DNA from: a virus
DNA length: 28,814 bases
Direction: 5' to 3' (one strand)
Virus record (IMG/VR): IMGVR_UViG_3300005067_000008
Span: 1 to 28,814 of that record
Shown: one piece after another, positions 10,071-28,814 of the stretch
Layout of the letters: every line of letters starts with the position of its first letter
Position numbering within the stretch: the first letter of the stretch is position 1
Translations under genes and position numbers: made by a program
Notes under the pieces: generated by a model
Seen by the model: the letters and a program-made list of their open reading frames with translations, nothing else
Databases searched by the model: none
What the model was told of the DNA's origin: nothing

Positions 10071-10315
10071 ATGACTACGGTGTATGGATCAGTGAAGACG
10101 AATACGATGTCCTGACCGAAATGTGCGACTACCTCAGAGAATATCTGGCTATTGATGCGGCCTCTGCTGACCTCAAGGCGCGGGACTCTGATGTGGGGGT
10201 ACGGGACCGAATGGCCTTCAGGGAAGACGCGGCATGGTATTCGGTAATCAGTGACGGGTACCGTGACCTGTTCGCCAGTCTGAACAAGCGTGTCACCAGA
10301 GACCCGGAGAAGTAG
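10067..10315 (+). CDS. hypothetical acidic protein, 82 aa
   Basis: The product begins MNDYGVWISEDEYDVLTEMC and continues with helices DYLREYLAI, SADLKARDSD and DAAWYSVISDGYRDLFASLN. It is Tyr/Asp-rich and coupled to its upstream neighbour by ATGA. No motif identifies it. It ends 10 bases before the next start, where AGGAG forms the ribosome site. Confidence 0.55.
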   Translation: MNDYGVWISEDEYDVLTEMCDYLREYLAIDAASADLKARDSDVGVRDRMAFREDAAWYSVISDGYRDLFASLNKRVTRDPEK

Positions 10316-10325
10316 GAGAATCATA

Positions 10326-10808
10326 ATGTTGACTTCAATGCATGAGCAGATCCGTCTAGTTTTGGCGGACACCGATTTGGCTGACCCGGTCGAGATCGCG
10401 GAAGAGATCTTTGGGCGGTTGAGTCCGACTGAACGTATGCAGGCGCTTCGTGAAGTGTTGCCGTCGTTTGTGAGGCAGTCGCTTGCGTTTGATCGTAGGC
10501 TCACCCCGGCTGTGACCCCGGCACGCGAACTGGTTGGTGCTGGGCAGACGGTGGGTGGTTCGGCGCGTGTGCGGCGTATCCGTGATGATTGGCAAACCCG
10601 GTTGCAGACACCGTTGTGTGTTGACGGGGTTTGGATGCGTTTGGCTGAGTGTACAGCGGATGATTTGCGGACTGTCGCGGCTGATTTGCGGGTGCGGGCC
10701 GGAAAGATCGAGTCGAAGGCGGCTTGGTACGAGCAGTTGGCTGGCTTGTTGCCTCCCGGTGGCACTGTTGGCTCGTTGTCGCATGATCCGACCGCTGAGG
10801 CCGCATAG
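10326..10808 (+). CDS. conserved actinophage-type hypothetical protein, 160 aa
   Basis: From ATG 10326 (AGGAG nine bases upstream) the protein begins MLTSMHEQIRLVLADTDLAD. It has a helical front (IAEEIFGRLSPTERMQALREVLPSFV), a basic middle (SARVRRIRDDWQTRL) and a C-terminal region (LAECTADDLRTVAADL, then KIESKAAWYEQLAGLL). I recall similar proteins from actinophage early regions, always without assigned function; the C-terminal part could be a short coiled coil. It is the last conventional gene before the hairpin array, which begins 16 bases after its stop, so the array may be cotranscribed with it. Confidence 0.65.
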   Translation: MLTSMHEQIRLVLADTDLADPVEIAEEIFGRLSPTERMQALREVLPSFVRQSLAFDRRLTPAVTPARELVGAGQTVGGSARVRRIRDDWQTRLQTPLCVDGVWMRLAECTADDLRTVAADLRVRAGKIESKAAWYEQLAGLLPPGGTVGSLSHDPTAEAA

Positions 10809-10824
10809 TCAGCCACACAAACTT

Positions 10825-11339
10825 CCCCGCACGCCAGGCGATAGGCGACACCCATTGTAGCGCCGCGTGTGGGGACCAATTCTTACCGCCAACGCCAATG
10901 ACGGCACGATACCTAACCCGGGACCGCGTTGGCGGTACTTAAGCCCACCCCCACAAACTTCCAGTACACGCCATTACCGTTGCGATCGCCCAACACGTCC
11001 TCGCGTGTGCTGGCGTCCTATCCACCCCCACAGTTTTCCCAACCCGGGCCACGACGCGCTCGACATCCAACTGACGCGCGCCCGGGTTGGGGCTAGACCA
11101 GCCAGCCGACGCCACGCGTTGCACGACACCCATTCCCGGGCCGCGTCGGCTGGCCCTACTACTTCCGCACACGCCGAAGGAATTGCGAAATCCATCCGGA
11201 GTCCGCGTGTGCGGTTTATTCCACCCTGCCCCGACCACAGTAGCCGCGTTTTATCCGCCATGGACTCGCCGGGGCAGGGCCTGACACTTCCGCACACGCT
11301 AGAGCAGTTCCGCTACCCATTTCGCGCGCGCGTGCGCGG
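10825..11339 (+). repeat. hairpin-unit array, units 1-8 (TIGR-like guide array candidate)
   Basis: Eight inverted-repeat units follow each other with no sensible ORF. Arms (left/right): 10825-10834/10865-10874; 10885-10895/10926-10936; 10961-10971/11003-11013; 11038-11049/11080-11091; 11101-11112/11143-11154; 11165-11174/11205-11214; 11224-11233/11270-11279; 11290-11299/11330-11339. Arm sequences differ from unit to unit but pair within each unit. Units 2, 4, 5, 6 and 7 pair perfectly, 1 and 3 have one G-U pair, and 8 has one mismatch. Loops are 30 nt except unit 3 (31) and unit 7 (36). Most begin CA, end CC or GC, and have CGAYAYCCA-like sequence at loop positions 12-20, with about nine variable bases on each side. 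Linkers are 9-10 bases, or 24 bases with a shared CCACCCCCACA. Direction is taken from the downstream gene. Confidence 0.8.
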
Positions 11340-11373
11340 GTTATTCGTTGCCCACTACCCGAAGGAGAAAACC

Positions 11374-12399
11374 GTGTCTCTCACTATGCTTCCCGCCCAC
11401 CACGCCGGTGTCGCTACCCACAAGACGCCCGTGGGCGGGACCAATTTGTTTGATCCGGACAGCAACGATGCTGTCACTATTGCTTCCCTCACCAGCACAA
11501 GCCAACCATGCTGCGATATCCAAGGATTGCCCGCTTGTGCTGGTGAGGGGCAAGACTCAGCGACGGGCGCCACCGTGCCCGCGATACCCACACGAACTCC
11601 GCGTCCGTCGCTGTTCGACCCCGCCCTGGCCACCCTCGCATCCCTCCTTGACGACATCGAGGGAGCGCGAAAGTCGTCAGGCAACCGGCTCCGTATCCTC
11701 ACCGAGACTGAACCGGACTCGGATGGGGTCATGCGTGGTTTCGGTCTCGACGAAACCCATCCTGCCGTCGCTGTTATCGCCGCCCTCGGGGCCAACCTGA
11801 AGCAGGTTGAGCACGAAACTGTTCTCGCTTTGAACCGTGTGATGCGGAAGCATCCGCTTGGGGCGTGGCAGAAGACGCAGAAGGGCGTGGGTGAGAAGCA
11901 GTTGGCGCGGTTGCTTGGCTGCATCGGTGACCCATATCTGCGCGAGTTCGAGGATGGCACGTCACAGCCCCGCACAGTCTCACAGTTGTGGGCGTACTGC
12001 GGGCTCCACACACTCCCCACCACCGGCCATCGTCGGGGCGATGACACCCAGGAGTCCGTCGCCGGTGGTGGGGGCATTCTCCCGGCAGGGGCCATGGAGC
12101 GGTCGACACCCACAGTGGATACGCCCCTGCCGGAACTACGTATCGCGGCGAAACGCGCCAAAGGCCAGAAGGCCAACTGGTCAACCGACGCGAAAACCCG
12201 CGCCTACCTGATCGCCACCTCCTGCATCAAGCAGGACGGCGAATACCGGAAAGTGTACGAGGCACGCCGTGAACACACCGCGATCACACACCCCGACTGG
12301 ACGCCCGGGCACTCCCACAACGACGGACTGCGCATCGTCTCAAAACGCATCCTCCGCGACCTGTGGCGAGCAGCACGCGACTACCACAACGAGGCATAA
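11374..12399 (+). CDS. IS110 C-terminal / Nop-like protein without nuclease domain (Tas-like candidate)
   Basis: This is a 341-residue protein from GTG 11374, with AAGGAG six bases upstream. Residues 1-80 are low-complexity and encoded largely by three hairpin units. From about 81 (FDPALATLASLLDDIEGARK) there is a helical region, a coiled-coil-like stretch (GANLKQVEHETVLALNRVM), then an HhH-like segment at 171-187 (GVGEKQLARLLGCIGDP) and QLWAYCGLHTLP. After a second insert comes KRAKGQKANWS (260-270), then TRAYLIATSCIKQ and RILRDLWRAARDY. The HhH, 'W.ycGL..lP' and 'rakGqkanws..aK.raYLia..cik' series matches the C-terminal region of IS110/IS116 transposases, whose fold relates to the Nop domain of box C/D and Tas proteins. 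The N-terminal DEDD RuvC domain and an obvious catalytic Ser are absent. It is therefore likely an RNA-binding, non-cleaving protein. The open frame continues upstream to 10867, but through the array, and is probably fortuitous. Confidence 0.7.
   Translation: MSLTMLPAHHAGVATHKTPVGGTNLFDPDSNDAVTIASLTSTSQPCCDIQGLPACAGEGQDSATGATVPAIPTRTPRPSLFDPALATLASLLDDIEGARKSSGNRLRILTETEPDSDGVMRGFGLDETHPAVAVIAALGANLKQVEHETVLALNRVMRKHPLGAWQKTQKGVGEKQLARLLGCIGDPYLREFEDGTSQPRTVSQLWAYCGLHTLPTTGHRRGDDTQESVAGGGGILPAGAMERSTPTVDTPLPELRIAAKRAKGQKANWSTDAKTRAYLIATSCIKQDGEYRKVYEARREHTAITHPDWTPGHSHNDGLRIVSKRILRDLWRAARDYHNEA
11391..11613 (+). repeat. hairpin units 9-11, inside the 5' end of the Tas-like gene
   Basis: Three further units of the same design lie within the coding frame. 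Arms: 11391-11400/11431-11440 (10 bp), 11486-11502/11533-11549 (17 bp, perfect, the longest of all), and 11558-11570/11601-11613 (13 bp with one G-U). All three loops are exactly 30 nt and carry the core motif (CGCTACCCA, CGATATCCA, CGATACCCA). They are translated as Pro/Thr/Gly-rich peptide between the start codon and the first folded part of the protein. Confidence 0.8.
12015..12133 (+). repeat. hairpin units 12-13, inside the Nop/IS110-like domain coding region
   Basis: Unit 12 arms are 12015-12027/12061-12073 (13 bp, perfect) with a 33-nt loop whose core carries three extra bases (CGATGACACCCA). Unit 13 arms are 12082-12092/12123-12133 (11 bp, perfect) with a 30-nt loop and core CGACACCCA. 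They sit eight bases apart and encode about 40 residues between 'YCGLHTLP' and 'ELRIAAKRAKGQ', where I would expect only a short loop. The extra three bases in unit 12 preserve the reading frame. Confidence 0.8.
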
Positions 12400-20941: not shown

Positions 20942-22039
20942 GTGATTCACATTGACAGCATCGTTGACCCTGCCGAGTTACAGCAGGGTCTTAAGGACGG
21001 CCTGATCGTATGCAGGGAATCTGGTGACGGTCAGTACATCCTCAACTACACAGACCGGGCAATGCACACTGGTTCCTGGGCGAATAAAGCGGTACGGGCC
21101 TGCCGTGGCCTCATCTTCAACGCAGACAGGTTCGTGGTCGCACGCCCGTGGGAGAAGTTCTTCAACTACGGCGAGGGTTTGGCGGGCGACCTTCCGCTGG
21201 ATGCGCCAGTCGAGGTCACCGACAAGATTGACGGCTCGCTCGGCATCCTCCACCTGGGGGAAGACGGTGATCTTCGGATTGCGTCTCGCGGCAGCTTCCA
21301 CTCCGACCAGGCACAGCACGCCACCCACATCCTGCACAGCCGCTACCCGGACATCGCATACCACTTCAACCCGCGCGAAACCACCGTCTTGTTCGAGATC
21401 GTGTATCCAGCCAACCGGATCGTGTGTGACTACGGCACCCAGGATGATCTGATTCTGTTGGGTTCCGTCGATATAGAGTCGGGTGAATATTTTGGCCCGG
21501 ACTACACGGCGGCAGCTATCCACTGGAGTGGGCCAAAAACCGACACGTTCCGGTACGAGACGTTGCGGGAAGCGTTGGCCGCACCTGAACGGCCCGGCGC
21601 TGAAGGACTCGTGGTCAGGTTCCTCGGAGATAACCATCTCGTCAAGATCAAGCAGGCTGACTATCTGAAGCTGTTCCGGATCACGTTCGGCCTATCTGAA
21701 CGTACCGTTTGGGAGCACCTGATGGGCGGCGGCATCATTCTGAATTTACTCGATCAGCTTCCGGAAGAACTGCACCCGTGGGTTCGTGCCGTGTCTGGGA
21801 GGCTGCACGGTGAGGCCTTCGCTATCTGGGACGCCGTGGATACCATCCATCAAGACATTCTTTATGCACTACCAGCGAACTTCACCCGCAAGGAATATGC
21901 CGCGTATGCGAACAAGACAAAATACGCGCACTTCCTGTTCCAGATGCTGGACGACCGCGACATGTACCCGATCATTATGAAGTCGTTGAAGCCGGGCCAT
22001 AACCATGCCCGGACTAGCCAGTCGGAGGATGCCGCATGA
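20942..22039 (+). CDS. RNA ligase (ATP-dependent, T4 Rnl1-like)
   Basis: This is a 365-residue nucleotidyltransferase starting at GTG 20942, with GAAGGA upstream. Motif I is DKIDGSLG with the adenylated Lys95. RGLIFN and WEKFFNYGEG lie before it, and SRGSF (motif Ia) follows at 115-119. Motif IIIa/IV is FEIVYPANRIVCDYG (Glu152) with EGLVVR at 221-226. Motif V is HLVKIKQADY (Lys235, Lys237). This is the complete set of the RNA ligase/DNA ligase superfamily, and the F-N-Y-G segment is typical of T4 Rnl1-type RNA ligases. The next gene (polynucleotide kinase) overlaps by ATGA. In T4 this pair repairs tRNA cleaved by host defence nucleases. The family is confident; the in vivo substrate is inferred. 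Confidence 0.9.
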   Translation: MIHIDSIVDPAELQQGLKDGLIVCRESGDGQYILNYTDRAMHTGSWANKAVRACRGLIFNADRFVVARPWEKFFNYGEGLAGDLPLDAPVEVTDKIDGSLGILHLGEDGDLRIASRGSFHSDQAQHATHILHSRYPDIAYHFNPRETTVLFEIVYPANRIVCDYGTQDDLILLGSVDIESGEYFGPDYTAAAIHWSGPKTDTFRYETLREALAAPERPGAEGLVVRFLGDNHLVKIKQADYLKLFRITFGLSERTVWEHLMGGGIILNLLDQLPEELHPWVRAVSGRLHGEAFAIWDAVDTIHQDILYALPANFTRKEYAAYANKTKYAHFLFQMLDDRDMYPIIMKSLKPGHNHARTSQSEDAA

Positions 22040-22950
22040 CCACATTGCACATCATCAGGGGTTTGCCCGGCTCGGGTAAGACCACGTTCGCCACCAGCTG
22101 GGTACGGGAAGATCCGGACAACAGGACGCGCGTAAACCGTGACGATCTGCGGCAGATGATGTTCGGGAAACGTGCCGATTTGCTTCCCGCCCAGGAAGCG
22201 TTGGTGACAGCCGCTGAACAAGCGATTGTGCGTAGCTCGTTGGAGGCTGGCCGTGACACGATTGTGGATGACATGAATCTGCGTCCCCGGTATGTGCGCG
22301 GCTAGCAGGAAATCGCCTACGAGACCGGTGATGTCACCCGTTTGGTCGAGATGCCCGTCAACGTCGAGTTGTCCGTCCGCCGCGATTTCCGCCGCGATAA
22401 GCCTGTCGGTGAGACTGTCATCCGTGACTTGGCGAAACGGTTCACCCGCAAACGCTCATATCTGCCCGTCTCGGATTACAGCACGGCTACCGGTCTCGCC
22501 CAGTATGTCGGCTATTCCCCGGACCGGCCTAATGCGGTGATCGTTGACTTGGACGGCACTATCGCATTGGGTACCCAGCGGGGACACTACGACTGGGCGA
22601 AGGTTGGCGGCGACACCCCAAACCAGCCGATCATCGATCTTGTCAATGACTTGTACAGTGTGGGAACCGACCAGATCATCTTCTTGTCGGGCCGGAAGTC
22701 TGTTTGCCGCCAGGAAACACTGGACTGGCTTTTGAGGCAGTTCCCCTACATGAACTCTTATACTGTGGAGCTTTACATGCGCCACGACGATGACGGTCGC
22801 CCCGACTTCATTGTGAAAAACGAATTGTTCGCGACGTATGTGAATGGTATCTACAATGTGCGGCTCGTTCTGGACGACAGGAACAGTGTGGTGCGCATGT
22901 GGCGGGATATCGGACTCACCTGCCTTCAGGTGGCGCCGGGAGCGTTCTAG
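22036..22950 (+). pseudogene. polynucleotide kinase/phosphatase interrupted by an in-frame amber codon
   Basis: The frame encodes 304 residues if the TAG at 22303-22305 is read through. The N-terminal kinase has GLPGSGKTT (P-loop, residues 8-16), NRDDLRQMM, and DTIVDDMNLRPRY before the stop. After the stop the same frame continues QEIAYETGDVTRLVEM, the lid VRRDFRRDKPVGE, and a HAD phosphatase with DLDGTIA and FLSGRKS, ending VLDDRNSVVRMWRD. This order (kinase, then phosphatase) is T4 Pnkp. Upstream part: 22036-22305; a possible internal restart is ATG 22342. Nothing else is lost, so a recent nonsense mutation, a sequencing error, or suppression/readthrough are all possible. It overlaps the ligase gene by four bases. 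Confidence 0.85.
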
Positions 22951-27985: not shown

Positions 27986-28814
27986 ATGCCGCGTATCAGG
28001 ACCATCAAACCGAGTTTCTGGCGGTCGCCGTCAACAGGTCACGCGTCGCCGTGGGCGCGTCTGTTGTACATCGCGATGTGGAACTGGGCTGACGATTGGG
28101 GGAGGGCCGAGTGGACTCCGAGGGAGCTTCTGGGGTTCGCGTTCCCGCACGACACAGACGACCCGTGCGACGATCTGAACTTTCCCACACTTGTTCAGGA
28201 AGTTTCCAGAAAGTTCTCGATAAAGTTTTACCGATGTGGTGAACGGCGCTTCTACGCTGTGGATAACTGGGACGAGCATCAGAAGGTGCCGAAGAGGGTC
28301 GAGAGCAAGTTCCCCGCACCCGACGACCCTGAATGTGTACCTGACAAGGAGGTATACGGAGAATCCTGGAAAAGTCAAAACTTTTCAGGAACTTTCCTGA
28401 CGACTTCGGAAAAAGTTGGCACTGGAAGTAAGGAAGTAGGAAGTAAGGAAGTAGGAATAAATACTCTTGCTCGACCGGCGAGCAAGAGCCTCGAACCTGA
28501 CCGGTTCGATGAGTTCTGGGCGGTGTATCCCCGCAAGGCCGCCAAGGCCAAGGCCCGCACGAAGTTCGCCACAGCCGTCAAGAAGGTCGGAGCCCAGACC
28601 GTCATCGACGGCGCCACCCGATACGCGGCAGACCCGAACCTGCCCGAACAGCAATACATCCCGCACCCCACGACCTGGCTCGAACAGGGACGCTGGGACG
28701 ATCCGCCGCTACCAGCCCGTCACGACAGGCGGCAGACCGCCACGAACGGGCTCACCGACGACCAGTGGTCTGCCGCCTGTCGTGACGGGCTGGTAGCGGC
28801 GGATCGTCCCAGCG
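27986..28814 (+). CDS. replication initiator-like HTH protein, 3' end not present
   Basis: The frame is open to the window end (276 codons). The N-terminus (MPRIRTIKPSFWRSPSTGHA, then WARLLYIAMWNWADDWGRAE and LLGFAFPHD) is the winged-helix domain found in phage replication initiators and DnaD-like proteins. A Ser/Lys/Thr-rich linker follows (residues about 130-165). The C-terminal domain has RFDEFWAVYPRKAAKAKART and IPHPTTWLEQGRWDD, a helical module recurrent at the end of phage replication proteins. Only about 28 bases beyond 28738 may be genuine; after 28766 the sequence is a reverse-complement copy, so the last 16 residues should be ignored. It probably opens the origin or loads the helicase. 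Confidence 0.75.
   Translation, partial: MPRIRTIKPSFWRSPSTGHASPWARLLYIAMWNWADDWGRAEWTPRELLGFAFPHDTDDPCDDLNFPTLVQEVSRKFSIKFYRCGERRFYAVDNWDEHQKVPKRVESKFPAPDDPECVPDKEVYGESWKSQNFSGTFLTTSEKVGTGSKEVGSKEVGINTLARPASKSLEPDRFDEFWAVYPRKAAKAKARTKFATAVKKVGAQTVIDGATRYAADPNLPEQQYIPHPTTWLEQGRWDDPPLPARHDRRQTATNGLTDDQWSAACRDGLVAADRPS
28177..28396. other. candidate origin iterons inside the initiator gene
   Basis: The octamer GAAAGTTC or its reverse complement occurs at 28177-28184, 28209-28216 and 28389-28396, with near copies between (for example AAGTTTCC at 28200-28207 and AAAGTTTT at 28222-28229). The surrounding linker region is more AT-rich than neighbouring genes. Lambda carries its origin iterons inside gene O in the same way; the analogy is an inference. 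Confidence 0.35.
28424..28453 (+). repeat. 15-bp tandem repeat in the initiator linker
   Basis: GGAAGTAAGGAAGTA occurs twice head to tail (28424-28438 and 28439-28453), each itself containing two GGAAGTA. In frame it gives GSKEVGSKEV. It directly follows the iteron-like stretch and precedes AT-rich GGAATAAATAC, so it could be part of an origin's unwinding region or simply a linker repeat. Confidence 0.6.
28691..28814. repeat. 48-bp perfect inverted repeat at the contig end (probable fold-back artefact)
   Basis: Bases 28767-28814 are the exact reverse complement of 28691-28738, separated by 28 bases. The repeat stops exactly at the window's last base and lies inside an open coding frame. A fold-back chimera from amplification or assembly explains this best. 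Confidence 0.85.

Follow-up and report, generated by a model that had tools for sequence, protein, structure and literature searches.

What is the role of an array of hairpins whose arms change from one unit to the next, and which runs on into a phage gene labelled a transposase? The array lies at 10824-12133 on the + strand of a virus sequence, IMG/VR record IMGVR_UViG_3300005067_000008, analysed here as the complete record of 28,814 bases (the window), and the gene that it overlaps, here called tas, at 11374..12399 on the same strand. Comparison with known proteins and related loci makes it very probable that the two together constitute a Tas guide array of the stem-loop TIGR-TasA type. The initial annotation had proposed a TIGR-like guide array beside a Nop/IS110-related gene, and this is supported by the NCBIfam TIGR-Tas family, by alignments to TasR and TasH, and by two CCA-N9-CG modules within the unit. 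It had also taken the self-complementary arms to be undescribed, which proved wrong: section 9 of the TIGR-Tas paper (PMC12045711) describes stem-loop arrays with variable, consistently palindromic arms and a solo TasA, with 13 units on a Peromyscus gut contig. Like ours, that system has 13 stem-loop units with variable palindromic arms, together with a solo, nuclease-less Nop protein; compared by the main text of that paper, ours appears to differ in its CG box D, its regular 4-nt linker, units inside tas, a partner gene (PHROG 4604), covariation between the ninth positions of the two spacers (A9-B9), hypervariable spacers, and occurrence in cultured actinophages.

Thirteen hairpins with compensatory pairing

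The array contains 13 hairpins, as examined by an exact inverted-repeat scan and a covariance model, in agreement with the 13 inverted repeats first noticed within 1.3 kb. Ten loops are exactly 30 nt, as had been read by eye, and the remaining three are 31, 33 and 36 nt. In the ten units with 30-nt loops, positions 12, 13, 16, 18 and 20 of the loop are invariant as C, G, A, C and A, just as first described. The arm length originally given, 9-17 bp, becomes 10-18 bp if one counts GU pairs and tolerates single mismatches. The claim that the arms covary is borne out in the ten 30-nt-loop units, where 99 of 100 positions form standard pairs (shuffled mean 70.4%, equalled in 0 of 500 shuffles) and 8 of 10 arm pairs carry changes on both sides, i.e. 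are compensatory. The arm covariation score is 0.793, against 0.202 when shuffled and at most 0.121 when the arms are slid, and again none of 500 shuffles equals it. A covariance model built from these ten units recovers all 13 in the window, 12 at E <= 2.3e-4 and one (11226-11277) at E 0.027, its sole other match there being one unit in antisense. When folded as RNA, five units exceed their shuffles in stability (z -3 to -6). The array is partly coding, with 5 of 13 units within the tas reading frame, and hence not purely intergenic.

A Tas protein overlapping the array

The tas frame opens, as read from the sequence, with a GTG start after AAGGAG. Its product scores 188.5 bits against NCBIfam NF052498 (TIGR_Tas_endo; cutoff 100), and profile comparison matches it to TasR (9mty, E 1.3e-28) and TasH (E 1e-15). 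An AlphaFold model (pLDDT 86.5) consists of a Nop domain and disordered stretches, and Foldseek ranks TasR 9mty first (1e-7), then TasH (7.6e-5), then IS621 and other IS110 recombinases (ISCro4). A Pfam search gave no RuvC, HNH or other nuclease family in the protein. By sequence and predicted structure, the gene overlapping the array thus encodes a nuclease-less Tas protein, which we assign to the TasA kind because no nuclease domain was seen. Two database names misfit a protein without nuclease or transposase domain, 'endonuclease' for NF052498 and 'transposase' for PHROG 4285.

GenBank and PHROG (PHROG 4285) both label the protein a transposase, and IS621 and ISCro4 are structural relatives sharing its Nop-like RNA-binding fold, so an IS110-type element with its bridge RNA, or decayed copies of one, has to be weighed. 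We consider this extremely improbable: the DEDD transposase domain was not found (Transposase_20 matches one member only, at 0.059), such an element has one two-loop bridge RNA rather than 13 units with two 9-nt spacers each, mobile ends were not seen, and the nearest relatives are TasR and TasH. With the dual-repeat TIGR-TasR/TasH arrays (9mty, 21kl and relatives) the system shares a homologous Nop domain, 9-nt spacers and a predicted two-strand targeting geometry; it differs from them in having no RuvC or HNH, in its palindromic arms in place of an edge repeat, and in a predicted 17-bp site with a shared base pair rather than 18 bp.

Unit anatomy and association with tas

Including the arm edge, a unit reads CCA-N9-CG-N4-CCA-N9-CG, which is two equal modules in the order box C, spacer A, box D, linker, box C, spacer B, box D, with the same boxes (CCA and CG) at the arm edge and in the middle of the loop. 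Box C is CCA here and in TasR, whereas box D is CG here and UG in TasR (published boxes CCA and UG). The exact 9/4/9 geometry recurs in 368 of 475 units near tas; the search that found them demanded the CCA and CG boxes, which ten window units show independently. Both spacers, A and B, favour A/T at position 1 and G/C at positions 3 and 6, as would be expected if a symmetric dimer handled the two in the same way. In one related locus (L004, 5624-5688) and its equivalents in the A1 mycobacteriophages, unit 2 carries a long loop linker, CGGCAACTCGCCG, where other units have 4 nt; this linker could form a small stem of its own.

In the window, all on the + strand, the first two units have 30-nt loops: unit 1 (10824..10875; spacer A GGCGATAGG, spacer B TTGTAGCGC) with an 11-pair arm and a model E of 2.6e-10, and unit 2 (10884..10937; A ATGACGGCA, B ACCCGGGAC) with a 12-bp arm, E 1.2e-10 and a fold z of -3.4. 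Unit 3 (10961..11013; A TTACCGTTG, B ACACGTCCT; E 2.3e-4) has the 31-nt loop, and is followed by units 4 (11037..11092; A CGACGCGCT, B ACTGACGCG; E 2.2e-10), 5 (11101..11154; A CGCGTTGCA, B TTCCCGGGC; E 3.5e-11) and 6 (11165..11214; A AAGGAATTG, B TCCGGAGTC; E 9.5e-11). Unit 7 (11224..11279; E 0.027) is divergent, with a 36-nt loop, a 10-bp arm and no clear boxes, and unit 8 (11290..11339; E 8.8e-10) has a 30-nt loop that starts with TA rather than CA, and forms Watson-Crick pairs at 9 of 10 arm positions. Three units lie in the N-terminal coding part of tas: unit 9 (11391..11440; A CGCCGGTGT, B CAAGACGCC; E 4.1e-10), unit 10 (11485..11550; A ACCATGCTG, B AGGATTGCC; E 2.6e-10), with a 17-bp exact arm and a fold z of -6.0, and unit 11 (11558..11613; A CCGTGCCCG, B CACGAACTC; E 2.2e-10). 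Nop-domain coding sequence holds unit 12 (12014..12074; A TCGTCGGGG, B GGAGTCCGT; 33-nt loop, E 3.9e-5) and unit 13 (12082..12133; A TGGAGCGGT, B CAGTGGATA; E 2.4e-10).

The initial annotation had asked whether such units are widespread without a Nop/IS110-like gene. Run over tas-bearing loci, the covariance model made 206 matches, almost all of them close to tas, and over 20 tas-free stretches it made none; against 297 actinobacterial genomes it gave two matches only, each adjoining tas. This distribution also bears on the idea that the hairpins are structural elements (terminators, attenuators or REP-like repeats) with incidental loop letters. Strong stems would suit such a role, which we nevertheless regard as having a negligible chance of being right, since hundreds of units tied to tas have a loop of fixed length and two CCA-N9-CG modules, the 9-nt blocks are hypervariable between constant flanks, and the units were seen in association with tas only. 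A CRISPR array was considered and rejected: the arms vary from unit to unit, and a direct-repeat scan found no direct-repeat family spanning the array. Rfam returned no match to the array either at the gathering threshold or at E 1, the box C/D small nucleolar RNA (snoRNA) family included; PADLOC gave no match, and direct-repeat and tRNA scans gave nothing useful.

Guide units nested in tas

Units 9-11 occupy the N-terminal coding part of tas, and units 12-13 an insertion of the Nop domain that is predicted to be disordered (model residues 138-179), unit 12 encoding disordered insertion. Of 80 related loci, 32 have units within Nop-domain coding sequence and 50 have them in the open frame ahead of that domain, the latter a softer count because GC-rich DNA has long open frames and true starts are uncertain. 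A point against the nesting is that the N-terminal units are in frame only if the GTG start chosen here is right, whereas the Nop-domain units do not depend on it. Published arrays sit upstream or downstream of tas in the text of PMC12045711, and a term search of that text found no nested units; the apparent nesting of guide units in the tas frame was not found described. In Nocardia suismassiliense (L082, 9476-11872), the open frame of tas runs to 799 aa and holds an intein-like insert, which begins at the Cys of a WAYCG motif and ends in VHN before CG. A huge nested array was considered for this protein and rejected, the extra length being an intein.

A conserved partner gene

Directly upstream of the array and tas, at 10290..10808 on the + strand, lies a gene of PHROG 4604 (so assigned in 18 of 18 members scanned), a homologue of which precedes tas in 78 of 80 loci. 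A tblastn search with the window copy matched only tas-bearing phages. The gene occurs in 3 of 297 actinobacterial genomes, the very three in which tas is strongly matched; two of these also contain matches to the unit model. Pfam, PDB sequences and Foldseek yielded neither a known fold for the partner protein nor ParB similarity. The arrangement recalls the TasA-TasParB operons described in the main text of PMC12045711, in which TasA likewise has a standing partner gene; here the partner is without ParB similarity and the arrays are stem-loop rather than dual-repeat.

Occurrence in cultured phages and spacer hypervariability

Relatives of Tas were found in 84 sequenced phages, 76 of them of Mycobacterium, among which are the A1 phages Arlo and Chanagan (PMC6256580, PMC11636230). 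A search of open papers in PubMed Central found none on this actinophage clade. Nor did we find described, beyond the nested units, the occurrence in 84 phages with hypervariable spacers, the A9-B9 and coding-phase rule set out below, or the PHROG 4604 partner. A distant Tas relative occurs in a cyanophage, Microcystis phage Mvi-JY20, where the upstream partner was not detected and a clear array of this type was not found.

Across eleven A1 loci the frame of the array hardly varies while the spacers do: the pairwise difference is 0.582 in spacers, 0.096 in arms and 0.124 between units, with third codon positions at 0.083 in tas and 0.074 in the upstream gene. In 180 unit comparisons among A1 phages, both spacers had changed at at least 4 sites in 141 and were identical in 12. 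We infer that spacers undergo diversification or replacement, because a sevenfold excess over change at third positions is more than neutral drift should produce. Unit 4 in three A1 mycobacteriophages (L048, L053, L055) combines one spacer A, TATCTCCGG, with three spacers B, ACTGTCGAC, ATGCTCACC and TGATCATCC; the spacer halves can therefore change independently.

It is tempting to speculate that the array is a renewable memory, in which some process, perhaps with the PHROG 4604 partner, takes new 17-bp protospacers from the coding DNA of foreign elements and writes each one, as a pair of 9-nt spacers, into a fixed hairpin frame; this would be a CRISPR-like store without Cas1/Cas2, partly nested in its effector gene and controlling its own message. 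We hold this only tentatively and think it rather doubtful. Natural targets, spacer origin and TasA function are described as open in the main text of PMC12045711, most systems being metagenomic and their targets hard to find. The present clade includes dozens of sequenced, culturable phages of Mycobacterium smegmatis, in which the gene is annotated as a transposase, DNA-binding or hypothetical protein; with such phages, and with spacers that turn over between close relatives, the origin of spacers, their targets and competition can be tested directly in a standard laboratory host. The nested guides and PHROG 4604 offer concrete genes for deletion, and the signals described next a concrete target rule.

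Predicted target

The last positions of the two spacers, A9 and B9, share mutual information at z 17.7 (373 distinct units). In 352 units, Watson-Crick pairs between them are over-represented (149 of 352), and purine-purine and pyrimidine-pyrimidine pairs are depleted. Using a model of coding sequence trained on phage open frames totalling 553 kb, we found that spacer A and the reverse complement of spacer B, rc(B), have a common strand and coding phase (z 4.5, rising to 4.9 when the A1 group is left out); in the tandem-order control (A-B) the signal is near 0. This phase is compatible with an uninterrupted site in which A1-8 and rc(B1-8) are separated by one base or by four, of which one is favoured because of the A9-B9 signal. 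Together, the A9-B9 covariation and the A/rc(B) coding phase suggest that the target is 17 bp of coding DNA, of which both strands are read and the middle base pair is shared. Beyond position 9, comparing A with B or with rc(B) for similarity gave no clear signal, and there was no wobble-position bias among similar spacers.

The coding phase also bears on whether the units guide Tas to RNA, as box C/D-like guides or antisense, rather than to duplex DNA. The Nop domain and box C/D-like layout do recall small nucleolar ribonucleoproteins, and Nop5 is a weak structural match. We nonetheless think RNA guiding very unlikely: the relatives TasR and TasH act on DNA, TasR is inactive on RNA, and the phase is common to A and rc(B), not to A and B, as for two strands of one DNA site.

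Target searches

Several results weigh against DNA targeting by the predicted rule, above all that the searches found no natural target. The phase alone also permits a 20-bp site, and the TIGR-Tas authors report in their main text no obvious A/B covariation in their own systems (PMC12045711), so the 17-bp site may be special to the actinophage clade or wrong. About 1.7 Mb of related phage DNA showed no target excess. About 17 units searched against 50,697 phage records gave no exact 17-mer in actinophage, a negative in which three-unit queries may approach the E limit; 121 Mycobacteriaceae genomes gave only scattered matches at chance level, as judged without a permuted control; and two Chanagan units had no match in the first 50 kb of Ashwin, which comes from the same soil sample as Chanagan. 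Pooled loci, with gaps of -2 to 6 and several strand orders, gave no target excess, and one A1 17-mer searched against IMG/VR matched two small contigs, about as expected by chance. Gap-2 matches (6 versus 2.2) were discarded, being partly duplicates and fitting a period-3 effect.

Self-targets were likewise absent at 0 or 1 mismatch in nine A1 genomes (five nearly complete, four partial), the best matches having at least 2 mismatches. This lack fits foreign targets, toward which the guides would then be directed. It also bears on whether guides instead direct Tas to the phage's own or host genes, in a lysogeny switch or host takeover. The genes near tas in Gordonia phages include those for a repressor, Cro, integrase and excise, and in A1 phages tas lies in the early right arm; a TasA without nuclease makes repression plausible, and the spacers seem to match coding DNA. 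Regulators of own genes, however, should be conserved, and the spacers are the fastest-changing part of the locus; with no near-exact self match and only the chance-level matches of the host-family search, we judge own or host regulation unlikely.

Proposed mechanism

For guides directed at foreign DNA, the array (upstream of tas, in its N-terminal part and in the Nop loop) would be transcribed together with tas, and each hairpin excised as a single guide RNA. A Tas dimer would hold the two box C/box D modules (CCA...CG), one at the arm edge and one in mid-loop, with spacer A pairing to one DNA strand and spacer B to the other at one short duplex site. In this clade the 3' ends of the two 9-nt spacers would come together with one base pair common to both, so that the target would be 17 bp long and usually protein-coding. 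Because Tas has no nuclease domain, it may act by binding and bending this target, which would keep foreign DNA, most probably other phages or plasmids in the same host, from being transcribed or replicated. Since five guides sit in the tas message, guide excision would destroy that message and might thereby limit Tas production, a form of autoregulation, and the PHROG 4604 gene would be a standing partner. From the sequence evidence, we put a function against foreign DNA, in competition, at an even chance.

Phage context

Judged by its terminase, whose kin are in phages of Mycobacterium, Arthrobacter and Gordonia, the window is an actinophage fragment, and the hosts of the phage carrying the array are bacteria of soil type. 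At 20942-22950 it encodes a T4 Rnl1-like RNA ligase (Pfam E 5e-16) and then further frames, with a P-loop kinase-like start (GLPGSGKTT) and an HAD-like motif (VDLDGTIA); by these motifs, the ligase and the kinase/HAD-like frames are probably an RNA-repair pair. At the extreme end of the record, 28691-28814, lies an inverted repeat with arms of 48 bp, which is probably a fold-back assembly artefact and possibly a genuine terminal hairpin.
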